From an uncultured Bacteroidia bacterium (GTDB taxonomy: Bacteria; Bacteroidota; Bacteroidia; JANWVE01), in contig CALIZB010000088.1 of assembly GCA_938028625.1 (NCBI GenBank), positions 1 through 33,685 on the forward strand: a stretch of DNA of 33,685 nt, read 5' to 3'. A model generated the notes under the pieces. That model did not search any database. It saw only the letters and a program-made list of their open reading frames with translations, and was not told the origin of the DNA. This document shows positions 6,736-33,685 of this stretch, piece by piece. The translations under genes and the position numbers were made by a program. Every line of letters starts with the position of its first letter. Positions within the stretch are counted from its first letter, which is position 1.

Positions 6736-9700
6736 CTATCGCATAATATACATTTTTCCTATACCATTTTTGAAGTATTGCTCGGTTTTATCGGTACGAA
6801 CTTCAATAGGCTTACCGTTTATTTTGGCATTTACTTTATAGAAATATACTCCGTTAGCAAGTTTATCGCCAAAGTCATCAGTACCGTCCCATGCGTACTG
6901 GGTAATATTTTTGCCGATCTTTACCTCACCCATACCTTTCAAATCTATTTCTTTGACTAATTTACCTGTAACTGTATAAATCTGTATTTTGAACACATCA
7001 GGAATTTGGTCACCTGTAAGGTTAAACACAAACCTTGTACTTGTAGAAAACGGATTAGGATAATTCAGTACATTAGTAAGCGTAGATTTACTGACCACTT
7101 CAAAGTCTATGTTATACCAACCATTTTTATCCGTATTGGTTGCATCAGCTACACCAGATATATTTTGTTTTCTGTCTTGGGCAAATATGCTTAATCTATA
7201 TCTACCATCTTGTAATCTGTTAGGAAGACATATTATAGTGGCACGGTTAGGTTTAGCGTTCTGAGCAGGATAAAATGTTATTTCACTCGGTCTACGATTA
7301 GCAACGGCATTGTAATACACTATAATAGTAGTATCAAACACATTCTTGTAATACGCTAATTGTACAATAAATAAAGAGTCATTTTGCATGAGGAAGTACT
7401 TATTTTCATCAGTAAGAGTAATTTTTATTTCTGGTGTTGGGGAAACAATATCGTTGTTCGTAATGTGATGTCCGTCAAAAGTTACATCTATAATAGGGTT
7501 TTTTGTATCAGGTTTAGCATAAAACGGGATAGCCAATACATTATTGAAGTGGTATAATTCTAATTGGTCATCATCAGGGTTTACATCAATGTAAAGCACA
7601 TTGTTACCAGGATAGTTTCCTGTGTTAAGTGTATAACGGAAAGTAGCAGTATCTGTGGGTGTAGTTTCTTTGGTAAGTGCAGGTAAAAATAAGCTATCTA
7701 TCAATTTAAGGGTGTTGTTTGAAGTCAAAATTTTGATATGTACTTTAATTGGTTTGGTAAAATTATAATTGCTGATATTTCTGAAACCAATTCTTACACT
7801 TAATTCATCTCCTTCTTCTAATTGTGCATTTTTGGGGATAAGTGAATAGTAAGTAGGGTCTAATGTACCTTCGGGAACAGGTGCGGCAGATACAATCCAT
7901 TTGTCTAGCTGTGGTGCGGTGCGATTAAGAGAATCAGACATTTCTGCCATTAAACGTATGCGCGGATAGATATTCGCATCAATTATACTACTCAGATTAG
8001 TATTTGCTTTACTGTAAGATTTATCTATGAGTTTAACTTCTGTACCGTCTTTTTTAATTCCCCAAACAGAAACAGGACATCTATCTCCGCCATCTAAATC
8101 ATGGTGTTGCCAATGTAAATCTTGCCATGCGCTGGACGGTCCGAAGGTTTCTGATGTATGCGTACCTTCGTACCAATAGCTCTTAATCGGTAAAGTAACA
8201 TATAATCTTTGCCTTGTGTAATGTGTAGTGTCACTGGCGTTGTAAGTGTACTCTTCTGCCGCACCTATGGCAATACCTTTTCTTCCAGATACTACCCATG
8301 GCGCCCCTGCTTCCATATTGGCAATATTTGCACTTCCTATACTCTCAAATGCGGTAATCAAGTTAGAAGTCCATGTTTTCGGGTTAGTATAAATATTGTT
8401 GAAGGCAACTACAAAATACCCATTCGGAATACTATTTTGAATATAATCCGCTAATTGGTTTTGACCATACGCACTAGATACATCAAAAACAAGCATAGGG
8501 TCATTAAAGTATAGACAGCCATATATTAAATTTTTTCTTGCTTTGAGCGTAATCGGGTCAATTACAATGAGATTTACAGTATTATCACAAAAGTTTCCTG
8601 CCAGTTCTGTAATGCCGTTCATATCATAACTACCAAACACGCCTGCACTTGCCCCGCCTGTAGTAATTTTGAGTAAAGCATAATTTGGTACAAATGACCA
8701 TATATCGGTAGTTTCGTCAATATCTACCCTATATCCTGTACCTTTATAGAACTGTGCAGGTTTTGCCTGTGCCCAGCCACCAGGGCTATTTTTAATGTAT
8801 ATGAAAGAAGCCTCTACCCAATCAGAATTAGGTAAATCCAATTTTGCTCGCCAAAAAAAGACTACGCTATCTCTATTTCCAATAATAGGCATCAAGTCTA
8901 TATTCCATACGCCACGATAACGATTACCTTCAATAGGGGGAGATACTAAATAACTTCCTCCACTGTGAATAATACTTGGCTTGAAAGGTACAGTATCTAT
9001 TTCAAAAAGGTATTTTAGCCCTCTGCCTTCGTAATCTAATGCACCTGCGACTAAACTATCTGGTCGCATAGTTTGGTTAACAATAGAAAATCTCGGTGGA
9101 AACAAGATAAAAACGTTGTTATTGGGAATAAATTTGTCTAAACAACTACGATTATTGAGTTCGTTACTTTCTACAATGATATTATTCGGGTCAGCAATAG
9201 CACAAAAACGGTTTTCTCCTGCTTTTTCAGCATCTTTGGTAACAATTTCAATGTTCAGCGTATCCATAAATGGAATGGGCTTGCTTTTTACTCGTTTTAT
9301 GAGTGCAGTAGTACCGTTTGGTGCAGTACGTTCTATGTCTACAAAAAAGCTATCTCGGGTAGCTAAGCCATTATTTCTAATTACTACGTTAATAATAACA
9401 CTATTATCTAATGCACCAAAGTTGGGGGGAGTAAAATAAATACCATTACTTAACACTTCATAATCGGGTTTATTAGGTAAATGTCTTTTTACAGCAGGGT
9501 CGCCTTGATAATTGATTTGTCTGATGTGGTTGATACGTGAAGGAGAAATAGCGCCATATCTGTGATTAGTTTCTCTTAATATATCAGCGTAGCTTGCATT
9601 CTTAAATGCAGTATCTACATACATTACATCATAATAGGTATTGGTAAAAATAGCCAATTCTCCTAAATACCCTTCTGACGAAGATGCCATAAATCCGATA

Positions 9701-11772
9701 GCACCTTTATTTGCAATTTTAGTAAACTGTTCTCCCGTAGAGATGGTCCAAGAATTAAATTTACCTGAATAACAGCCATTAGCTATCATTAAAAAGTATT
9801 TACCTGAATTGGTGTAGGTATCAGGGTCATCTAAAGCAATATCATATTTGGTACTGGACGAGTGTCCGAAAAATGTAAGCATAGATGCACCGTTTTCTAT
9901 GCGCTGTTTTACACTCAAAGCTAAATTAGTTTGAATAGGTAAAGCTGATGTTTTGAATAAAGAATTAACATGCCCACCAAAATAAATTCCTTCCACTTTC
10001 AAACGGTTATTTTCTAAACAATTTTTAATGGCTACTTGCTCACCTAAATTTCCTCCTCCTCCAAGATGTAATACTTCTTTCATCCATAATTGAAAAGTTA
10101 AACTCTCATGGGTCATTACTTTTTGGAGGTAGTTGTTTCCCTCTGCATCAGTTAAGGCACACACTCTCCCCACAGAAATAACATAATTAAAGTTACCTGA
10201 TTGCATACTATAATCAAAATTAGATACAATATCTATATCACTGCCAGGATAACCGTACGTGGGAACACGGTCATATTTAATATCTCTTGCGTTAGTAACA
10301 GGTTTTCCCCATAACAATAGGTATTTAGGTGGATTTGTCCATATTTTAGTCATGGCTTTACCTGCACGTTTTAGAGCAAGTGGCGTGTAATGCCCATAAG
10401 CAAATTCATTGTAGAGTTCATCAACGTAATAAATTTTGACTTTGTAACTGCCCCCCATCATACTTTGGCGGTAGTTTTTATAGGCTTCTGCAGAAGCCGT
10501 TAATTCTCTGTGTGTAAAAATAACATAATCATAGTTTTGTGTTTCATCATATAAATAAGCAAAGGTACATTCGCTGATACGTGCAGGCGATTTTACTTCA
10601 TTTATCCATATTCCTGCAGTGCTATCTGTGGGAGTAGCAGGAAAAACAGCCGTAAATTGATTACCTGATACTGTACCTAATATGCGTTTTTTATGCAAAG
10701 TATCCCAGTAGCAAGATTGAGAAGCATTAACGGGGTAGTTTGTTGTAAAAGTGATAGTTCTATTTCCTGCACTTGTGCCTTGAATATTCGCGTACCATAC
10801 GGTATTTCCATCAATTTCAAAGGTGCGTTTGTAACGTAGGCTTGCCCAGCAAAGTGCGTTATTATCAGTATCTACCTTGGGTGGTAATAAATCACTGCGC
10901 TGGCGTGCAGTAATGATGGTAGTACCTGCGGTAAGGTCAGAGTGAGATAAAGTATTGTTGTTAAAATAACGATAGCTGTATCCGTTGCCTGTCTGTGGGG
11001 GACATATCACAGTAGAACCCATCACAATATCCGTAGCATGGTCAATAGGACTACCATCTTTGTAGTCTGAGGCATAATAAATTTTGACAGATAACTTTAC
11101 GGGATTGGGTTCAGAAGTTACTATATGCTCCGTAGGAATGTTAAAATCTGCACTGCCGTTATAGCCGTATTCCGTACCAAACCAGCCTTCACCAAGCGTG
11201 TAGTCCGAACTTAAATCATCATAGAAGGTACCGTCGGTTGAACCTGTATGATACACGCCATAGTTAATAGGTTCTACATAGCTTGTATGCCAGTAGTCAT
11301 TGAGTATGGGTGCAGGTGTAATGATGTTTACATCTGTATAGCGTTTTCCTGGGGTAGTAGAATAAGTTAAAATATAACTTGCACTATCAGTAAATAAAGA
11401 ATACTTGTAAGATTTTTGAAATTGTGGATGCAAAGTAGGATTATAGAGATAACGGTCATCTAATCCGTTATTATGATTGCCATAAAACTCAATGTAGTCT
11501 GTATTGTCAAAAACATTATTGTTATTAGCGTCTACGGTGCGGATATATTGTTCTTTACCTTGATAAAAAAGTTGTAAATAATCAATGTTTGGGTTTCCTA
11601 AAATGCTTACCTGGGCATAATTTACGCGGTATATTCCTTCTTCGGTTATCTGAATTTTAACATATTTTTTTGTTTTATTAGTATAATCTATCCATGAGTT
11701 AGCATAGTCCTGACTATTGCTAAGTTTGAACACAAAGCACAAAAGCAAGTATGCAAACACAATTTTTTTCAT
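6736..11772 (-). CDS. porU: C25-family cysteine peptidase, PorU-type T9SS sortase (long form)
   Basis: From the ATG at 11772 the protein has 1678 residues; a TTG four codons upstream overlaps a promoter-like box and is rejected. It has a signal peptide ending SNSQ. An N-terminal region follows with a Ca-loop-like DANNNNVFDNTD and YIEFYG. The C25 (gingipain-type) domain carries the His in FFGHSS (codon 9862-9864) and the Cys in IANGCYSG (codon 9772-9774), the expected catalytic dyad. A CARDB-like Ig domain comes next (NNGLATRDSFFVDIER ... VESNELNN). A long middle region and a C-terminal T9SS-type domain (NYPNPFSTSTRF ... LANGVYFYKV) complete it. PorU removes the sorting domain of T9SS cargo and attaches it to the cell surface. 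This protein is clearly longer than the roughly 1150-1300 residues usual for PorU, so it may be the long form or a related secreted C25 protease. It lies directly downstream of the PorV-like gene. Confidence 0.78.
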   Translation of the reverse strand: MKKIVFAYLLLCFVFKLSNSQDYANSWIDYTNKTKKYVKIQITEEGIYRVNYAQVSILGNPNIDYLQLFYQGKEQYIRTVDANNNNVFDNTDYIEFYGNHNNGLDDRYLYNPTLHPQFQKSYKYSLFTDSASYILTYSTTPGKRYTDVNIITPAPILNDYWHTSYVEPINYGVYHTGSTDGTFYDDLSSDYTLGEGWFGTEYGYNGSADFNIPTEHIVTSEPNPVKLSVKIYYASDYKDGSPIDHATDIVMGSTVICPPQTGNGYSYRYFNNNTLSHSDLTAGTTIITARQRSDLLPPKVDTDNNALCWASLRYKRTFEIDGNTVWYANIQGTSAGNRTITFTTNYPVNASQSCYWDTLHKKRILGTVSGNQFTAVFPATPTDSTAGIWINEVKSPARISECTFAYLYDETQNYDYVIFTHRELTASAEAYKNYRQSMMGGSYKVKIYYVDELYNEFAYGHYTPLALKRAGKAMTKIWTNPPKYLLLWGKPVTNARDIKYDRVPTYGYPGSDIDIVSNFDYSMQSGNFNYVISVGRVCALTDAEGNNYLQKVMTHESLTFQLWMKEVLHLGGGGNLGEQVAIKNCLENNRLKVEGIYFGGHVNSLFKTSALPIQTNLALSVKQRIENGASMLTFFGHSSSTKYDIALDDPDTYTNSGKYFLMIANGCYSGKFNSWTISTGEQFTKIANKGAIGFMASSSEGYLGELAIFTNTYYDVMYVDTAFKNASYADILRETNHRYGAISPSRINHIRQINYQGDPAVKRHLPNKPDYEVLSNGIYFTPPNFGALDNSVIINVVIRNNGLATRDSFFVDIERTAPNGTTALIKRVKSKPIPFMDTLNIEIVTKDAEKAGENRFCAIADPNNIIVESNELNNRSCLDKFIPNNNVFILFPPRFSIVNQTMRPDSLVAGALDYEGRGLKYLFEIDTVPFKPSIIHSGGSYLVSPPIEGNRYRGVWNIDLMPIIGNRDSVVFFWRAKLDLPNSDWVEASFIYIKNSPGGWAQAKPAQFYKGTGYRVDIDETTDIWSFVPNYALLKITTGGASAGVFGSYDMNGITELAGNFCDNTVNLIVIDPITLKARKNLIYGCLYFNDPMLVFDVSSAYGQNQLADYIQNSIPNGYFVVAFNNIYTNPKTWTSNLITAFESIGSANIANMEAGAPWVVSGRKGIAIGAAEEYTYNASDTTHYTRQRLYVTLPIKSYWYEGTHTSETFGPSSAWQDLHWQHHDLDGGDRCPVSVWGIKKDGTEVKLIDKSYSKANTNLSSIIDANIYPRIRLMAEMSDSLNRTAPQLDKWIVSAAPVPEGTLDPTYYSLIPKNAQLEEGDELSVRIGFRNISNYNFTKPIKVHIKILTSNNTLKLIDSLFLPALTKETTPTDTATFRYTLNTGNYPGNNVLYIDVNPDDDQLELYHFNNVLAIPFYAKPDTKNPIIDVTFDGHHITNNDIVSPTPEIKITLTDENKYFLMQNDSLFIVQLAYYKNVFDTTIIVYYNAVANRRPSEITFYPAQNAKPNRATIICLPNRLQDGRYRLSIFAQDRKQNISGVADATNTDKNGWYNIDFEVVSKSTLTNVLNYPNPFSTSTRFVFNLTGDQIPDVFKIQIYTVTGKLVKEIDLKGMGEVKIGKNITQYAWDGTDDFGDKLANGVYFYKVNAKINGKPIEVRTDKTEQYFKNGIGKMYIMR

Positions 11773-11781
11773 GTTTTTTAC

Positions 11782-11789
11782 CAAAGTAA
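11782..11789 (-). promoter_or_regulatory. Possible -7 box (TTACTTTG) for the PorU-type gene
   Basis: One mismatch to TAnnTTTG on the minus strand, ending 9 nt before the ATG at 11772. The spacing matches that of consensus boxes elsewhere in the window. It would allow expression separate from the upstream porV-like gene. Confidence 0.3.
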
Positions 11790-11818
11790 GATAAAAACTA
11801 TACGTAAAGATACGAAAT

Positions 11819-12907
11819 TTATTGTATTAACATCTGTTTATCCCAAATAAATTTCAAAGAAAACACATGTGTATATAGTGCGTTGCCTGCGCCCCCAAAG
11901 TTGAGTGGTGAAATAGCATAATCAATAGTAAAGTTAAGAAAAGAAATTCCTGCACCGAGATTAGGGCGTACAGTTAAGTAGCGTTTGTTATTATCACGTG
12001 TGTAGTATTGAAAATTATCTACGCCTGCGCGTAAAAAAAGTTTATTGATATACCCTATTTCAACACCAGCTTTTGGGTCAGATGAGATAAGATTTGTCTG
12101 GATAATGGTATTTCTTCTGCCATCTGTAGTAGTTTTAAGGCAAACTGCACCTAAAAGATTGAATTTTTCAGAAATTTTGAAGTTTTTAGCTATACTCAAG
12201 GTTAAACTTGGTAATGTAATTTCAATTGAATTTTGAGGAATTTCATTTCCTGTCTGAATAAATTGTTTTTCAAACGTTTCTGTATTAAAAGACCATGCGT
12301 TAAAGGTAGTGGTAATATCATTGAACATTGCTCCATAAACAAAGCCTTTTCTTTTGTAAATAGCTCCTGCATCTAATCCGAAGCCCCATGCGGTAGCAAA
12401 AGGACCCACATTTCTGTGTATAATTTTAGCATTAGCCCCTACGCTTAACCCAGGGATTTTGGCATTAAGATTTCTACTGTAAGAGATTAAAAACGCATAA
12501 TCTGAGGTAGAGAAGGATTTTATACGATTATAATCTATACTGCCGTCAGGGCCTACAAGGTCAAGTGTATTAGGAATATCATCTACCCCCAAACGTATAG
12601 CAGATACCCCAAAATGATTGATGCTGTCCATTGGAATAGCCACTCCTATGTAGTCAAAATTAGCGATATTACCAAAGTAAGCGGCATGCATAAGCGCAAA
12701 TTCAGGCTTGCGAGAAGCATAACTTAACCCCGCAGGATTCCAATATCCTGAATAGACATCGTTCGTAATAGCCGTATAAGCTCCTGCCATACCTAATGCT
12801 CGCCCCCCGATTCCAATGTTCATAAATTCATTGCTGTATTTAGGGGTTTGAGCAAATAAAGAACTTGTCAAAAGCATTAAAACAAAATAAAAAAGACGGC
12901 AAAACAT
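11819..12907 (-). CDS. porV: PorV/PorQ-family outer-membrane barrel protein of the type IX secretion system
   Basis: From the ATG at 12907 the protein has 362 residues; a TTG four codons earlier is the only upstream alternative. The signal peptide ends SSLFAQ. It is followed by the family hallmark IGIGGRALGMAGAYTAITND and GYWNPAGLSY, shared by PorV, PorQ and related FadL-fold barrels. Amphipathic strands continue to the end (YAFLISYSRNL, LGAGISFLNFTIDYAISPLNF, HVFSLKFIWDKQ). PorV is the outer-membrane shuttle that takes folded T9SS cargo from the SprA translocon to the PorU/PorZ attachment complex. The assignment rests on the family signature plus the PorU-type gene 46 bp downstream on the same strand. 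PorQ or another paralogue cannot be excluded from sequence alone. Confidence 0.78.
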   Translation of the reverse strand: MFCRLFYFVLMLLTSSLFAQTPKYSNEFMNIGIGGRALGMAGAYTAITNDVYSGYWNPAGLSYASRKPEFALMHAAYFGNIANFDYIGVAIPMDSINHFGVSAIRLGVDDIPNTLDLVGPDGSIDYNRIKSFSTSDYAFLISYSRNLNAKIPGLSVGANAKIIHRNVGPFATAWGFGLDAGAIYKRKGFVYGAMFNDITTTFNAWSFNTETFEKQFIQTGNEIPQNSIEITLPSLTLSIAKNFKISEKFNLLGAVCLKTTTDGRRNTIIQTNLISSDPKAGVEIGYINKLFLRAGVDNFQYYTRDNNKRYLTVRPNLGAGISFLNFTIDYAISPLNFGGAGNALYTHVFSLKFIWDKQMLIQ

Positions 12908-13163
12908 AACTGCGTTCAATTATTATGTAAAAATACGAATATTTTTCAAAAACAGGACGATAAGGTAAAAAAATATGCCTATCAGAATAATAAAAAGGCT
13001 TTTTATAGCATTTTATTTTCTGATTATATCAAAAATGATAATGAATAGAGGCTCTATAACTCGTAGCAATTTGAGTGCTTATACTGAATAAAAACTGAAT
13101 TTCAAAAACATAGTCTATGCATGTGCGAGGCTCATGTTTTCAAAGATAAGGTCTTTAAAAAAC
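12908..13163. other. Intergenic gap between porV-like gene and fabG
   Basis: About 250 bp of AT-rich DNA upstream of porV and downstream of fabG. A TATTTTTA, one mismatch from the -7 consensus, sits on the minus strand about 25 nt before the porV start. I see no open frame with recognisable content, no convincing terminator for fabG and no repeat worth naming. Confidence 0.4.
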
Positions 13164-27269: not shown

Positions 27270-29021
27270 TTACTGCTGAGGTATAAAAACCTGCTCTGAC
27301 TGAATAAATACAGGAAATCGCTGATAGTTTTCCACATTCAGCTTCCATATATTAGGCTTTTCTGTGGACTCAAAACCTAACTTCGGGTAATGTTCCTTTA
27401 CCATGCTATTTTTGGAAGTAGGAATATATTCTCCAATGATATGTTCAAATCCATTTTTTTGGGCATAGTCTACAAGCGTGTTAAGTACAAACTGTTCTAC
27501 ACCGCGTTTTAATACTCTACAACTCATCAGCCACGTATCTATAAATAAGGTTTTTTCATTTTGTTTTTGCAATATCACCACACTAATTAAACCATAACTG
27601 CCAAATTTATCTGTTAAACAAAAATAAAACGGAATATAATTTTTATCGGTTGCTATTCTTTGTATATCGGCTTCTGTGTAGCGCACTGTGCGTAAATTAA
27701 ATTGATTTGACCTTTGGGTAAGCTGTGCTATGCGCGGTACATAAAAAGAATTTGTAAAATCTCCGACTTCGGCTGTCATGTTCAAACTTTGTAGGTATTC
27801 ATCAATAGAAGAGTATTGCGCTTGTGATTTTCGGCGAGTATCTTCGGTTTGGTACATTTCTGTACGCGCGGTATCATCTTGGGTAAAAGATGCGGTTTCA
27901 AATAAATTAAGGGTTTCTAAATAAGAAACATATTCTGCGGGATCCTCGGGCAATTCAGGTACGCATACATCAGGTAATTGAGTACGTACTAAATTACGCT
28001 CAAAAGGATTGTCATCTAAAAATACTATGCTATCAAAACCAATTTCTAATATGCTCTGAATATAGCGTATGTTATCAGCTTTATTTTCCCAATTAGCAAC
28101 AAAAACAGCAATATCATTCAATTTAAGTACCATATCAGGATGTTTTTCAAAAGGTTCTTTGGCTACATGCTCATCATTTTTACTGCACACACAAAGTATA
28201 ATGCCGCGTTCTTTGAGCTTTTTGGCATAATACTGCAAGTCAGTAAAAGCCTTTCCTATACCTACATCGCCAATTTGAAGGTTATCTATACCGTCATCAC
28301 CAATAACGCCCCCCCATGTGGTATTGTCCAAATCTAAAATTAAACACTTCTTGAATTTACCTTGTATAGAAAGTATTATATCTACAACGCTTTTAGCAAT
28401 ATAGGGCAAAAAATCTATATCATACACTTGATTAGCTGTATAATACAAACTTGGCTTAAATGCTTTTTCTTTACCTACTAAATTATGCAATGCCGATATA
28501 TCCTGAATAAATACATTCTTGTACTGTTGTACAAGGTTCATAAGTTCAAAGTTAATTTTTCTTACTTGGTATAACCATGAACACTGCGTTTTATTAGCAT
28601 AATTACCAAATACTGCATCGTCAAGTTCTGCGAGATTACTAAAAATGATGTTTGTTTTAATATTTTGATTAACAGTATCCCACCATAATTTTACTTTATC
28701 AAGATACTGTGTAGCAAAATGGGCTTTATCGGCTAGATCAAGGGCATTAAATTTAAGTTGTTGTTTTTTAGAACTTGTAGAAATAAAAATATATTGTGGT
28801 TGAAAATGATACAATTCACTTTCAGGATTAAAAATTTCAGTGTCAATAGCATCAAAATCTGCTTCATAAAGAGAGAGTTTTACTTTATTTTCATGAGCAA
28901 CGGCTTTAAGCATATCACAGAGTTTTTGCGTAGCAAAGTCCCCCAAAACGGCTATCTTTAACTCATACAAAGGTAAAACGGGTTGTTTAAGAATTTTTTT
29001 ATATTCAGAATACGTTTTCAT
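27270..29021 (-). CDS. FkbH-like HAD-IIIC phosphatase/acyl-loading protein with GNAT-like C-terminus
   Basis: From the ATG at 29021 the protein has 583 residues; an in-frame ATG at 29081 is less likely because a near-consensus box (TATTATTG, 29026-29033) lies just before 29021. An N-terminal segment with AVLGDFATQKL and IFISTSS resembles the SGNH-like part of FkbH proteins. The HAD domain starts with CLILDLDNTTWGGVIGDDG (nucleophile Asp230, Asp232) and continues with LCVCSKND and FLDDNPFERNLVR. The C-terminal FYVPRIAQLTQRSNQFNLRT and DTWLMSCRVLKRGVEQ look like the GNAT-type domain of this family. Characterised FkbH proteins load glyceryl-phosphate onto acyl carrier proteins. No carrier protein or synthase is adjacent, so a role in surface-glycan or lipid modification is only inferred. 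Confidence 0.85.
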   Translation of the reverse strand: MKTYSEYKKILKQPVLPLYELKIAVLGDFATQKLCDMLKAVAHENKVKLSLYEADFDAIDTEIFNPESELYHFQPQYIFISTSSKKQQLKFNALDLADKAHFATQYLDKVKLWWDTVNQNIKTNIIFSNLAELDDAVFGNYANKTQCSWLYQVRKINFELMNLVQQYKNVFIQDISALHNLVGKEKAFKPSLYYTANQVYDIDFLPYIAKSVVDIILSIQGKFKKCLILDLDNTTWGGVIGDDGIDNLQIGDVGIGKAFTDLQYYAKKLKERGIILCVCSKNDEHVAKEPFEKHPDMVLKLNDIAVFVANWENKADNIRYIQSILEIGFDSIVFLDDNPFERNLVRTQLPDVCVPELPEDPAEYVSYLETLNLFETASFTQDDTARTEMYQTEDTRRKSQAQYSSIDEYLQSLNMTAEVGDFTNSFYVPRIAQLTQRSNQFNLRTVRYTEADIQRIATDKNYIPFYFCLTDKFGSYGLISVVILQKQNEKTLFIDTWLMSCRVLKRGVEQFVLNTLVDYAQKNGFEHIIGEYIPTSKNSMVKEHYPKLGFESTEKPNIWKLNVENYQRFPVFIQSEQVFIPQQ

Positions 29022-29110
29022 GCTACAATAATACGAAAATAAAAGGTTGAAAGCACTTTTGTATTCTGATATGCTTTTCAAAATGCCTTATATTTTTTAG
29101 AAAAATATCG

Positions 29111-29125: not shown

Positions 29126-32100
29126 GTGTGGTGTAAAACAAGGTTTTTATGGGTTTTTATTGTGTTTTCGTGTATACAGGTATATGCACAATATACCAAC
29201 CTGCAAAAACATACTTTTACGCGTATACAACCCCAAGATACGGTATATTTTCCTGTTCAAAATGTTAATACTAACACTATTGAACTACCTGACAGCATTA
29301 AAGCAGACTTTGAAATTATTCCGTTCAAAAATTTTATGGTGTATCATGGTAATAAAGTGCTTAAAAATATAACTATAACGTATCGTGTTTTGCCTGTAAA
29401 TGTACCTACGGTGTATTATAGAAGAAAAAAAGTACCAGGTAGCACCAAAGATACTATCAAAACTAATACAAGTATACTCTCCGTAACCGAAATACCGTAC
29501 GAATATGAAGATAAAGGTTTAGGTTTTGAATTTTCTAAACTCAATAAGCAAGGTAGTCTGACGCGGGGCATCACTTTTGGAAACAATCAAGATTTAGTAG
29601 TGAATTCAGGTTTGAGATTGCAGTTTAATGGTAATCTTAATAAAGACATCAGCATTGTGGCGGCTATTACTGATGAGAATATTCCTATACAGCCTGATGG
29701 CAATACTGCCCAAGTTACAGATTTTAACCGCATTTTTATTCAAGTTAAAGGTAAAAAAACTACGCTTACGTTAGGTGATTATGAGCTTCGTAAGTCTGAT
29801 GGCGAATTTTTACGCTATTACAAAAACGTTCAAGGTGCAAGAATAGTTGTAGAAGATAAAGCAGTATGGAAAAATATATGGAAAAGCAAAGAATTATATG
29901 GTGCAGTATCTGTTGCCAAAGGGAAATTCAAAAATGATACCTTTTCAGGTAAAGAAGGTGTACAAGGTCCGTATCGTTTAACAGGCAGAAATAATGAACT
30001 GTTTATTATTATTCTGGCAGGTTCAGAAAAAGTGTATATCAATGGAGAACTCAAACAACGCGGCGAACAGGCAGACTACGTAATTGATTACAATGCCGCA
30101 CAGATAACTTTTACTAATAATTGCATTATCAATGCATATTCTCGCATTGTGGTAGATTTTGAATATGCCGACAGAAATTACACTCGTACTAATTATGCGT
30201 TTGGTTTTCGGCAAGAAGTAGCAAAAAAACTTAACCTTGAACTACATCATTATACAGAGAGAGATAACCCTAATGCCCGTATTGAAGGTAACCTCAGTGA
30301 CGCAGAAAAATCCATCATTCAAAAAATAGGTGATACGCTTCAAAAAGCATTTATTCCCTCTATACGTATAGATACCGCTAATAAACAAATCCGCTATGCT
30401 AAAAGAGATACTACTATTGGTGCGAATACTTATACCTACTATTATTTTTCTACGCATAAAGACTCAGCTATTTATGCTATCAGTTTCTCACCTACACGCG
30501 GAGATTATCGCAAGAAACAAAGTTTAATCAATGGAACTATTTTTGAATGGGTAGCTCCTGTGGCAGGTATTCCACAAGGTGATTATGCTCCCGTACAATT
30601 GATTGTAGTACCTAATAGTTATAGCATGACAAGCGTATCCGCAAAGTATGATATAAAAAATTGGCAATTACATAGCGAAACAGCAATAAGTAATGTAGAT
30701 AAAAACCTTTATTCTTCTCTCAATGACAATGATAACATAGGATTAGCACAACATTTTAGCCTTTTGGGAAAAAGTACATTCAAAGATACTACTAAAAAAT
30801 TGCTTTATGAATTTGCGTTTAAAGAAATAAACCCTCGTTTTACTGCTATTGACCGCTTTGAAATTGCTGAATTTGCAAGAGAATGGAATATTCCAACAGA
30901 ATTGCTTAATATACAACAATCTACAAGGTATTCAGGAACAATTCAGTATAAAACTAAAACACAACAATACAAACTACTTATTGGCAGATTCGCCCGTACA
31001 GACAGTTTTTCTGCTAATAAAATACGTTTAGAAAATCAATGGAATGCAAAACATCTCATAGGAACAGCCTTTGCTGAATACTTTAATGATACATACAAAA
31101 ATACTTTTACTACCTGGTACAGAAGTATTGGCAATCTTACAAAACCATTCAAATTTACGCATATTGGCATAAATTATATCTATGAAAACAAAGTAAATCA
31201 GGATATTGAGATGGATACACTGCTTGCAGGTGGATATATTTTCAAAGAAATTGAACCTTTTATCAAAAATACTTCAAAGCAAAAATTAGAATATGTACTT
31301 AAATACAACTATCGTGAAGATTTCGCTACACCGCTAAATAAAAGTTTGTTTAAGAACATTGCTAATACATACACTGCAAAATTTGCCTATCAAGAATGGG
31401 ATAAAATAAAGTTCAGATGGAATAATACCTATCGTGAATTTAAGGTAATAGACAGCGTTTTTATCCGTCAGGGCTTAAAAAATCAACAAACTTTGGTGAG
31501 CAACCTACAAATTGACCAAGAATGGTTAAAAAGAGCATTTTTAAGCACTACATTTATTGAGTATATGTCTGAGCGCGAACAAAAACGGCAAGTAGCTTTT
31601 GTAGAGGTACAACCAGGTATGGGAACACATCTTTGGAACGACTATAATAACAATGGTATTCAGGAAATTAACGAATTTGAACCTTCACCATTTATAGATA
31701 GAGCAAGATATGTACGTATTTTTTTGCTTACTAATGAATTTGTACCTGCTCTAAGTCAAAAATTTGGACAAAATTTTAATATCAATCTTGCCAAAGTGAT
31801 TAAAGGGAATACAGTTTATCATACCATATTAAAGCGTTTATCCTTACAAAGTAATACGCGTATTGAACAAAAATACCTCTCTGACGGAAAAATTAACTTT
31901 TCTTTACCATGGCAAGTCAATTTGGATAATATCAATTTGTTGTCTGCCACACAGTTATTCAAAAATATTTTTTATTACAATCGTAGTGGGCTGGGCAAAG
32001 GGGGCTTTGGGTTTGATGTTGAATATACTCACAATAAAAATAAATTATTTCTTTCTAATGGTTTTGAAACACGTACTAATCCTTATTGGCAATATACACT

Positions 32101-32602
32101 TCGTACTGTACTTAAACAGAAATATGGTTTTTATCTTATTTACAAAACAGCACAAAAACAAGTATTCACTGATTTTGCAGATAATCGCAATTTTGATATT
32201 GAACAAAAACTGTATGAAATCCGCTTTAATACTCAAATCAATAGAAACTTACGTGTTTCGCTTAAACAATCTTTTGACCAAAAAAATAATCGTTGGAATA
32301 AAGACACTACGTATGCAAATATACTCAAAACAGGCATAGATATTAAGTATCTAGTAGGTACAAAAACGAATTTATCCATTCTTACAGATTATGCTCAGAT
32401 TAAATACAATGGTGCTACTAATGCTCCTATTGAATTTGAACTGTTAGAAGGGTTACGCAAAGGACAAAATATACTTTGGAATGTGCAATTAAATCAAAGT
32501 CTTACACAAAGTTTGCAATTAACTATTATGTATGACGGCAGAGCAAATAAAGGCAGTAAAACTGTTCATACAGGGCGTATGCAATTAAGATTGATATTTT
32601 AG
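29126..32602 (+). CDS. Large outer-membrane beta-barrel protein of unknown function
   Basis: The 1158-residue protein starts at GTG; there is no in-frame ATG near the signal peptide (LWVFIVFSCIQVYA, cleavage before QYTNL). An N-terminal domain (about 25-230) has QGSLTRGITFGNNQDLVVNS and ITDENIPIQPDGNTAQ, a block that recalls the start of large Bacteroidota barrels such as SprA. A domain with YVIDYNAAQITFTN follows. The rest is amphipathic strands rich in Tyr, Trp, Phe and Lys, ending RMQLRLIF with a C-terminal Phe, the usual barrel-assembly signal. An EF-hand-type loop DYNNNGIQEINE (839-850) sits in the barrel region. It is far shorter than SprA (about 2400 residues), so it is not that translocon. 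It is divergent from the FkbH-like gene and base composition is very AT-rich. Confidence 0.75.
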   Translation: MWCKTRFLWVFIVFSCIQVYAQYTNLQKHTFTRIQPQDTVYFPVQNVNTNTIELPDSIKADFEIIPFKNFMVYHGNKVLKNITITYRVLPVNVPTVYYRRKKVPGSTKDTIKTNTSILSVTEIPYEYEDKGLGFEFSKLNKQGSLTRGITFGNNQDLVVNSGLRLQFNGNLNKDISIVAAITDENIPIQPDGNTAQVTDFNRIFIQVKGKKTTLTLGDYELRKSDGEFLRYYKNVQGARIVVEDKAVWKNIWKSKELYGAVSVAKGKFKNDTFSGKEGVQGPYRLTGRNNELFIIILAGSEKVYINGELKQRGEQADYVIDYNAAQITFTNNCIINAYSRIVVDFEYADRNYTRTNYAFGFRQEVAKKLNLELHHYTERDNPNARIEGNLSDAEKSIIQKIGDTLQKAFIPSIRIDTANKQIRYAKRDTTIGANTYTYYYFSTHKDSAIYAISFSPTRGDYRKKQSLINGTIFEWVAPVAGIPQGDYAPVQLIVVPNSYSMTSVSAKYDIKNWQLHSETAISNVDKNLYSSLNDNDNIGLAQHFSLLGKSTFKDTTKKLLYEFAFKEINPRFTAIDRFEIAEFAREWNIPTELLNIQQSTRYSGTIQYKTKTQQYKLLIGRFARTDSFSANKIRLENQWNAKHLIGTAFAEYFNDTYKNTFTTWYRSIGNLTKPFKFTHIGINYIYENKVNQDIEMDTLLAGGYIFKEIEPFIKNTSKQKLEYVLKYNYREDFATPLNKSLFKNIANTYTAKFAYQEWDKIKFRWNNTYREFKVIDSVFIRQGLKNQQTLVSNLQIDQEWLKRAFLSTTFIEYMSEREQKRQVAFVEVQPGMGTHLWNDYNNNGIQEINEFEPSPFIDRARYVRIFLLTNEFVPALSQKFGQNFNINLAKVIKGNTVYHTILKRLSLQSNTRIEQKYLSDGKINFSLPWQVNLDNINLLSATQLFKNIFYYNRSGLGKGGFGFDVEYTHNKNKLFLSNGFETRTNPYWQYTLRTVLKQKYGFYLIYKTAQKQVFTDFADNRNFDIEQKLYEIRFNTQINRNLRVSLKQSFDQKNNRWNKDTTYANILKTGIDIKYLVGTKTNLSILTDYAQIKYNGATNAPIEFELLEGLRKGQNILWNVQLNQSLTQSLQLTIMYDGRANKGSKTVHTGRMQLRLIF

Positions 32603-32653: not shown

Positions 32654-33685
32654 ATGATTAGAGAAACAAACTTGCTCACTCTTAAAGAAGCCGCCGAGTT
32701 TGCAAGCCAATATATCAGCAAAAATGTAACTATTTCCAATATTTCCTACTTGGTGAACTATGGCAGAATACCCAAAGCAGGAAATGACGGAACAGTTTTG
32801 ATTGATAAACAAGAACTTATCAAGTATTACGAAGGTTATTACAGAAGTCGTGAGTTGGATTGGAAAGACAAATTAGGCAGTGATTTGAATTGGGCTTTAA
32901 GTTTTGAACACCTCAAAGAAGCCGAAACCACCAAACACGTACACCGTCTGCACCCCTACAAAGGCAAGTACATTCCGCAGTTAGTAGAATACTTTTTAGA
33001 TGACCACACAGACGAATTTAAAACACAAACTTTTTTCAAAAAAGGCGATATTGTGCTTGACCCTTTTTGCGGTAGTGGCACAACCTTAGTACAAGCCAAT
33101 GAGTTAGGCATACACGCCATTGGGATAGATGTTTCGGCCTTCAATGCCTTGATTGGTAACGTAAAAGTTTCAAAAGTAGATTTGACAGACCTTTACCGAG
33201 AAACAGAACGGATAAGTAAAGCCCTCAGAAAGTTTGTTGCCCATTCGCCACACCTTGCCTTTGAAAAAGAACTTGCCGATTTTTTAACAGAATACGATAA
33301 AAAATATTTCCCTTCACCCGAATTTAAAATCAAGGTAAGGAAAAAAGAAATTGATGAAAAAAACTATGCCGCAACACACGAAAAAATTGTTTTAGAGAAG
33401 TTTAACGAATTGGTAGCCAAGTACCAAATAAAGATTCAGCAAGACCAACAGCATACTTTTTTAGGCAAGTGGTATTTACAACCTGTTCGCAACGAGATTG
33501 ATTTTGTATTTGAGCAAATCAAGCAAGTGCAAAATCTACACACCAAAAAAGTGCTTACCGTGATTTTAAGCCGTACCATTCGCAGTTGCAGGGCAACTAC
33601 TCACGCAGATTTGGCGACTTTGGTAGAACCCGTAACGACTACTTATTACTGTGCCAAGCACGGAAAAATTTGCAAGCCTTTGTTT
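32654..33685 (+). CDS. DNA methyltransferase with DNA-binding-like N-terminus (3' truncated)
   Basis: The frame runs 344 codons from the ATG at 32654 to the window edge without a stop. Residues 1-60 (LLTLKEAAEFASQYI, YLVNYGRIPKAG, LIDKQELIKYYEGY) resemble an excisionase/MerR-type helix-turn-helix. HVHRLHPYKGKYIPQLVEYFL and the SAM-binding motif I, IVLDPFCGSGTTLVQANELG, with GIDVSAFNALI follow, all typical of the N6-adenine/N4-cytosine (PF01555) methylases. The catalytic (D/S)PPY motif is not yet seen and is expected beyond the edge. A charged, helical region (about 185-280) may be target recognition. It is probably the modification enzyme of a restriction-modification system or a solitary methylase. 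G+C is clearly higher here than in the adjacent barrel gene, but similar to pdhB. Confidence 0.88.
   Translation, partial: MIRETNLLTLKEAAEFASQYISKNVTISNISYLVNYGRIPKAGNDGTVLIDKQELIKYYEGYYRSRELDWKDKLGSDLNWALSFEHLKEAETTKHVHRLHPYKGKYIPQLVEYFLDDHTDEFKTQTFFKKGDIVLDPFCGSGTTLVQANELGIHAIGIDVSAFNALIGNVKVSKVDLTDLYRETERISKALRKFVAHSPHLAFEKELADFLTEYDKKYFPSPEFKIKVRKKEIDEKNYAATHEKIVLEKFNELVAKYQIKIQQDQQHTFLGKWYLQPVRNEIDFVFEQIKQVQNLHTKKVLTVILSRTIRSCRATTHADLATLVEPVTTTYYCAKHGKICKPLF

Follow-up and report, generated by a model that had tools for sequence, protein, structure and literature searches.

Is SprA the only barrel of its size in bacteria that possess a type IX secretion system (T9SS)? The question is raised by one open reading frame (ORF) in a 33,685-nucleotide stretch of DNA from an uncultured Bacteroidia bacterium (contig CALIZB010000088.1 of assembly GCA_938028625.1), which we call the window. 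SprA, the known protein pore of the T9SS, is described as a barrel of 36 strands whose N-terminal extension docks SprE and SkpA, and from which T9SS substrates are thought to exit through an opening in its side, in complex with PorV (PMC10994853); no larger outer-membrane barrel is said to have been identified (PMC7463736). The ORF, at 29126-32602 (+), is intact, begins with GTG and encodes 1158 aa. The original prediction, made from the letters of the window, saw in it an SprA-like opening block and proposed a second, smaller translocon-like or plug-containing pore. On the basis of the ORF, its homologues and a structural model, we describe the whole gene as coding for an uncharacterised SprA-related giant outer-membrane barrel. 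Taken alone, the statement that an SprA-related giant barrel is tied to T9SS genomes is probably right, and if this is indeed a second giant barrel related to SprA, present knowledge of the outer-membrane part of type IX secretion would be incomplete.

A conserved protein family

Homologues of the barrel protein were found in 52 of 60 relatives (the window's own genome included), in 321 of 395 genomes of the class and in 147 of 247 genomes of the phylum, the phylum sample consisting of genomes with at least 90% completeness. Many Flavobacterium genomes carry the family. The length is nearly constant, as 106 of the 107 extracted members have 1130-1185 aa and one has 1019 aa. Several alignments were used: A1 with 79 of 81 rows (among loci L031-L110, L049 was dropped as truncated and L084 for its broken frame), A4 with 77 rows (L037 and L045 being left out beyond the A1 exclusions), A2 with 46 of 108 family sequences, picked by hand for spread, and A5 with 37 of the 46 rows of A2. 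Roughly 50-60 columns, including F1158, do not vary in A1 or A2, and the protein does end, as had been stated in the original prediction, in a predicted strand with this terminal Phe. The ORF is a real member of a conserved family, which is more than chance would give. All candidates were scored in the 60 relatives, and where a genome gave two or three matches, these were fragments covering different portions of the query; the gene is therefore single-copy there. A hmmscan analysis of the window's protein found no Pfam family at E ≤ 10, and phmmer found no sequence relative in the PDB at E ≤ 10; UreE, the sole profile match, had an E-value of 0.19 and was taken as chance.

Co-occurrence with SprA

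SprA was present in 57 of the 60 relatives, 385 of the 395 class genomes and 190 of the 247 phylum genomes, and the barrel gene is nearly confined to these SprA-bearing genomes. In the phylum sample it was found in 147 of 190 genomes with SprA versus 0 of 57 without, and in the class sample in 320 of 385 versus 1 of 10 (Fisher tests, which ignore ancestry, p = 7e-29 and p = 1.6e-6, respectively). A family without a Pfam or NCBIfam name is therefore conserved across the phylum in ∼77-83% of the SprA-bearing genomes sampled. This agrees with the original prediction, which would have been refuted by presence of the barrel in genomes that lack the system; the sole SprA-less genome found with a barrel, G182, is 56% complete. 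Furthermore, G060 has neither SprA nor the barrel gene, whereas both occur in each of the six further genomes sampled from its family, f16. The three SprA-less relatives (G027, G034, and G041) contain no type-B T9SS cargo tail, so that they do look T9SS-less. In these samples, where clearly independent SprA losses are few, the barrel gene behaves as a T9SS-associated gene. It is accessory, as it is missing from 65 of the 385 SprA-bearing class genomes, which argues against a general need for it in type IX secretion.

A module in common with SprA

The sequence relation to SprA centers on an inner beta module (residues 290-348; 29993-30169 (+)) that contains YVIDYNAAQITFT, starting at residue 318, and that was recognised as common to SprA in profile comparisons and genome searches. 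Its YVIDYN block scored 43.1 against SprA, and the best of 20 column shuffles scored 24.0. When sub-regions were cut out and compared by hhalign, the YVIDYN block (probability 94.4) and an N-terminal beta module (residues 26-92; 29201-29401 (+); probability 94.7) matched the same "DYTIDY" block of SprA, so that the module seems to occur twice in the barrel protein; their match to each other is weak (61.9), the sub-regions were picked after a weak first hit and the shuffle control covers the YVIDYN sub-region. Searches of whole genomes gave a reciprocal picture. At E ≤ 0.001 over the 60 genomes, TIGR04189, the SprA model, matched SprA, SprA fragments and, beyond these, the barrel family only, at 10 places in 10 of the 52 carrier genomes (E 2.2e-7 to 9e-4, on the scale of one genome). 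In the reverse direction, a profile built from A5 and run over 21 genomes at E ≤ 0.01 found the barrel family at 18 places, SprA ORFs at three (E 2.1e-4, 0.005, and 0.007) and nothing else. Judging from these reciprocal searches, the YVIDYN block is genuinely common to the two proteins. This part of the SprA-like opening block has thus been borne out, while the other part has not: the region of the first barrel strands (residues 139-274; 29540-29947 (+)) carries RGITFGNNQ, within RGITFGNNQDLVVNS at residue 147, and ITDENIPIQPDGNT from residue 181, and the score of RGITFGNNQ/ITDENIPIQ against SprA, 19.0, was reached by 4 of 100 column shuffles, so it was rejected as an SprA block.

The relation does not amount to membership. 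The barrel protein scores 19.4 bits with TIGR04189, over model positions 604-670 only, against a curated cut-off of 200 bits, and it has 1158 aa versus about 2400 in SprA. In addition, it has no match at E ≤ 10 to PF14349, given as the Pfam SprA N-terminal domain (PMC9581022). The comparison with SprA by hidden Markov models, which the original prediction had proposed, has therefore upheld a module match and not family membership. By the curated cut-off, the protein is not an SprA/Sov member and we have filed it as a variant of the SprA-type giant barrel.

Both families also have an EF-hand-like loop motif. In the barrel protein this is D839-x-N-x-N-G..E850 (31640-31675 (+)), in a long loop predicted to be extracellular, and it is kept in all 79 rows of A1 and in 40 of the 46 rows of A2; presumably it binds Ca2+, as EF-hand motifs do. 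The SprA motif is present in all 22 rows of A3, which holds 22 of 30 SprA loci (L121 and L122 were excluded, their longest frame being the wrong one, and six were left out for size). The two EF-like regions do not align, and we rejected their homology since 88 of 100 shuffles score equally well.

Predicted structure and fold comparison

AlphaFold predictions were obtained for the window's protein, folded with 79 sequences (predicted local distance difference test score, pLDDT, 81.8; predicted TM-score, pTM, 0.71), and for a 27%-identical homologue from Flavobacterium hydatis (pLDDT 83.1, pTM 0.69), the two folds being not fully independent as their input alignments have most rows in common. 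After residue 130, each of the models has 36 strands of at least 10 residues; with at least nine residues the numbers are 38 (window) and 36 (F. hydatis), and with at least eight, 41 and 39. As strands in a closed barrel normally come in even numbers, we estimate 36-40, and the protein is predicted to form a giant outer-membrane beta-barrel. The original prediction of a large barrel rather than a small pore is supported by these models, and so is its statement that the protein is about half the size of SprA, the unbroken SprA frames of the same 60 genomes having ∼2370-2540 codons. Its word "smaller", if taken as a narrower barrel, is contradicted: the number of long strands is SprA-like, so the missing length seems to be due to shorter inserts, and at half the length of SprA the protein would, by our estimate, form a barrel of SprA's scale. 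The inserts at residues 275-348, 386-497, and 820-871 may lie on the outer side, judging from a count of turns from the C-terminus that does not come out even.

In Foldseek searches of the PDB, SprA chains took ranks 1-3 for both models, with best E-values of 1.8e-9 (window) and 1.3e-9 (F. hydatis), and LptD and SusC-type barrels appeared below them. With the module described above, this upholds the proposed relation to SprA. In VIA-align, SprA (6h3i_A) aligned with 652 residues of the window model (Z 16.2, rmsd 8.3 Å) and with 700 of the F. hydatis model (Z 16.0, rmsd 8.7 Å), a coverage exceeding that of every other family among the 50 matches listed; the next-longest were those of SlpA and the SDBC protein (496-513 residues, Z 13.8-15.4). 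The leading matches lie within about 2 Z units, and SprA is favored among them by coverage, which grows with barrel size.

Compared with SprA/Sov (TIGR04189; PDB 6h3i, 6h3j, 8gl6, and 8gl8), the protein has in common a predicted giant barrel of similar estimated strand number, an N-terminal extension that precedes this barrel (the alignments of the structures begin at model residues 133-134 and SprA residues 132-134), the DY beta module and its occurrence in Bacteroidota genomes with a T9SS. SprA is universal with the T9SS, whereas the barrel protein is accessory. Chaperone-usher barrels (FimD and PapC) are wide barrels of 24 strands that act as protein-conducting pores, with an inserted beta domain as plug. 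They gave the highest VIA-align Z, and they differ in that the barrel protein has no Pfam usher match. LptD and SusC-type proteins are likewise large outer-membrane barrels, with fewer strands (26 in LptD, PMC9581022; 22 in a SusC, PMC12611786) and with no sequence match. As the Pfam plug and barrel domains were not matched and no TonB-dependent receptor, plug or SusC-type match was obtained at E ≤ 10, we rejected membership in the TonB-dependent receptor/SusC group. PorF (PG0534) and other T9SS barrels without an assigned function are also outer-membrane barrels of T9SS genomes (PMC7463736). PG0534, however, is listed as a TonB-dependent receptor (PMC5053529, Table 1) and is described as having no F. 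johnsoniae counterpart (PMC7463736), whereas the barrel family occurs in many Flavobacterium genomes.

The remaining features of the protein can be placed on this model. Residues 1-21 (29126-29188 (+)) form a signal peptide according to the sequence, alignment A2 and a helix at residues 2-24 of the model; cleavage would occur at ..VYA|Q, and Q22, the first residue past this site, is invariant in A2. The N-terminal module is built of strands in the model and should be periplasmic, given the topology. It is followed by a flexible linker (residues 94-132; 29405-29521 (+); pLDDT < 50). A second inserted domain (residues 386-497; 30281-30616 (+)) stands between long strands in the model and could have a cap or lumen role, and the main part of the barrel (residues 498-1158; 30617-32599 (+)) extends to the C-terminal Phe strand in the model and in the Foldseek and VIA-align comparisons.

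Possible function and alternatives

We favor the view that the protein is an accessory, T9SS-associated, SprA-related pore of translocon size, with a gated barrel and a docking module. As a whole, this is a tentative proposal, to which we give a little less than an even chance. The protein would be exported by Sec and then inserted in the outer membrane as a single giant beta-barrel with an estimated 36-40 strands, and this barrel could serve as a wide channel. By analogy with the SprA cap, the inserts at residues 290-348 and 386-497, together with the EF-hand-like loop, would shut or gate the barrel on its outer side, and the N-terminal module, tethered by the flexible linker, could dock partners in the periplasm, a role played in SprA by the N-terminal extension. 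The pore would handle a cargo or partner set not needed by all T9SS bacteria; this could include the passage of protein cargo, which might depend on T9SS energy. A bolder possibility, which we consider less likely than not, is that the family constitutes a second T9SS translocon class: a compact SprA paralogue exporting or assembling its own set of cargoes, whose barrel, going by the models, would equal in size class the largest one described for a single chain (36 strands) or surpass it (up to 40). Its omission from the lists of T9SS components consulted could perhaps be explained by the fact that these lists are anchored on P. gingivalis. No entry of the 29-candidate T9SS list built on P. 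gingivalis, a table that gives no lengths (PMC5053529, Table 1), could be matched to the barrel family, and we rejected PG2092 as a counterpart as it is given as Plug, with 419 aa. We recognised no report of an SprA paralogue or of a 38-40-strand barrel in the literature covered, which included few subscription papers and preprints. A single-gene deletion in a tractable Flavobacterium could test the role of the barrel directly.

Several results weigh against the accessory pore that we favor. Among the 20 listed of the 57 SprA-less phylum genomes, 17 fall in family f84, where most of the other 37 probably belong as well, to judge from the genus tally (118 of 122 with SprA); many SprA-less genomes share ancestry and clearly independent SprA losses are few in the samples. 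Some SprA-positive families are entirely devoid of the barrel, namely f39 (five genomes sampled), f57, f62, and f68 (four each). The five SprA-bearing relatives that lack the barrel still have 8-42 type-B cargo tails. Type IX export of those cargoes can thus do without it, and we rejected a dependence of type-B cargo on it. Among the conserved neighbours inspected, eight of which were put through Pfam, no T9SS gene was recognised. Regarding the relation to SprA, hmmscan with the window's protein gave no NCBIfam family at E ≤ 1, TIGR04189 included, and the E-values of TIGR04189 for the family apply to one genome at a time; the comparison of whole profiles by hhalign was weak (probability 9.9 over 60 columns), and one short module alone, YVIDYN, passes the shuffle control. 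As for the fold, strands of at least seven residues number 43 and 40 in the two models, some of them within inserts, so the strand number is an estimate. The ushers top the VIA-align results by Z (17.8 over 370 residues and 16.8 over 371, with about 320-380 residues aligned overall), and the Foldseek TM-scores for SprA are low (0.22-0.24), which together with the VIA-align rmsd above 8 Å means that an SprA-like global geometry is not shown.

Three other explanations have to be considered. The protein could be a sealed barrel through which no protein passes, acting as a scaffold or docking site in the neighbourhood of the T9SS, with inserts that bind surface or periplasmic T9SS proteins. Its accessory distribution within SprA-bearing genomes, the large inserted domains of the model and the lack of any recognised energising or carrier gene alongside it would fit such a role, and there is a precedent in PorV and PorQ, two other barrels by which the T9SS is reported to anchor surface proteins (PMC7463736). 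However, 36-40 strands are far beyond the needs of an anchor and SprA is the best-covering fold match, and we consider a scaffold unlikely. If the protein is instead a wide channel for polymers, lipids or large solutes that is mechanistically unconnected with the T9SS, the co-occurrence would be a matter of the shared ancestry of T9SS-loss lineages. The small number of clearly independent SprA losses and the neighbourhood without a recognised T9SS gene suit this explanation, as do the porin and usher folds that reach a similar Z over shorter stretches. Against it stand G060, which lacks both genes among f16 family mates that have both, and a beta module common to SprA and matched by nothing else in 21 whole genomes at E ≤ 0.01, and we regard it as quite unlikely.

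The third alternative is a surface receptor or importer that needs partners secreted by the T9SS (enzymes or adhesins) and would disappear together with these. This would account for its near restriction to SprA-bearing genomes, and in one genome (G035) a 3457-codon frame lies ∼0.95 kb from the barrel gene and carries a type-B tail. In contrast, no receptor-type Pfam domain was matched and no partner gene is conserved across the lineages inspected, and a receptor seems very improbable to us.

Genomic neighbourhood

The window also contains a PorV/PorU pair, to which the original prediction had tied the barrel. The pair, at 6736-12919 (-) and ∼16 kb from the barrel gene, corresponds to the NCBIfam families PorU2 (NF052324, 585 bits) and PorV2 (NF052325, 468 bits), and its PorU2 ends in a T9SS type-A sorting tail that scores at the cut-off (23.7 vs. 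23 bits). Their co-occurrence with the barrel is not strict among the 60 genomes. The barrel is found without an over-cut-off PorU2 match in six of them, clearly in G006, G021, and G023, and with incomplete or just-below matches in G038, G044, and G053; conversely, PorU2 is found without the barrel in three (G016, G047, and G049). A functional link to this pair is thus not supported, and we rejected the barrel as part of a PorU2/PorV2 subsystem.

Upstream of the barrel gene lies a divergent FkbH-type gene at 27270-29081 (-), whose probable start is an ATG within the ORF as listed; this would leave ∼100 bases before the barrel gene. Downstream, 51 bases past its end, a gene for an N6/N4-type DNA methylase with a weak helix-turn-helix match occupies 32654-33685 (+) and is cut by the end of the window. 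Neither of these adjoining genes suggests an operon with a T9SS gene.

In the 80 loci with flanks, the neighbours of the barrel gene vary by lineage. The commonest is an upstream gene on the same strand, in 36 of the 80 loci and mostly one to two genes away, which is seen in many Flavobacterium-type loci and which we take to be of aspartate-kinase type from the look of its sequence. In 24 of the 80 loci, of Flavobacterium type, the next gene downstream, on the same strand, encodes a small, exported-looking Ala/Lys-rich protein of 122-251 aa (e.g., L048:11470-11949 (+)), and low complexity may be what holds this cluster together. A convergent gene, coding for ∼290-350 aa with a single helix at the N-terminus and a long coiled coil, adjoins the barrel gene in eight of the 80 loci (L036, L038, L039, L040, L041, L042, L044, and L061; (-) strand) and lies two to four genes away in five (L091, L092, L106, L107, and L108). 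As the neighbours are lineage-specific and no T9SS gene was recognised among those inspected, we rejected operon logic as a clue to function. Proximity to T9SS genes seen by eye (SprA at ∼17 kb in G007 and ∼14 kb in G356, and PorU2 at ∼12 kb in G032) was given no weight. The 3457-codon open frame of G035 mentioned above, with its type-B T9SS tail, is at G035:C77:115606-120258, convergent with the barrel gene.

Some minor observations were also made. The genome of the window (G000) has a second, C-terminal piece of SprA on another contig, as a 172-aa open frame at G000:C101:6728-7237 (-). In G058, on the single contig C1, the SprA region (2603711-2610850), the barrel region (296446-299542) and PorU2 are all in pieces, and this breakage looks more like sequencing indels than joint decay. 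Finally, three contigs from metagenome-assembled genomes, L080, L103, and L110, titled Bifidobacterium breve, Rhizobium sp., and Chitinophaga pinensis, carry copies of the barrel gene that are 63-64% identical to that of F. hydatis, so that these titles look wrong.

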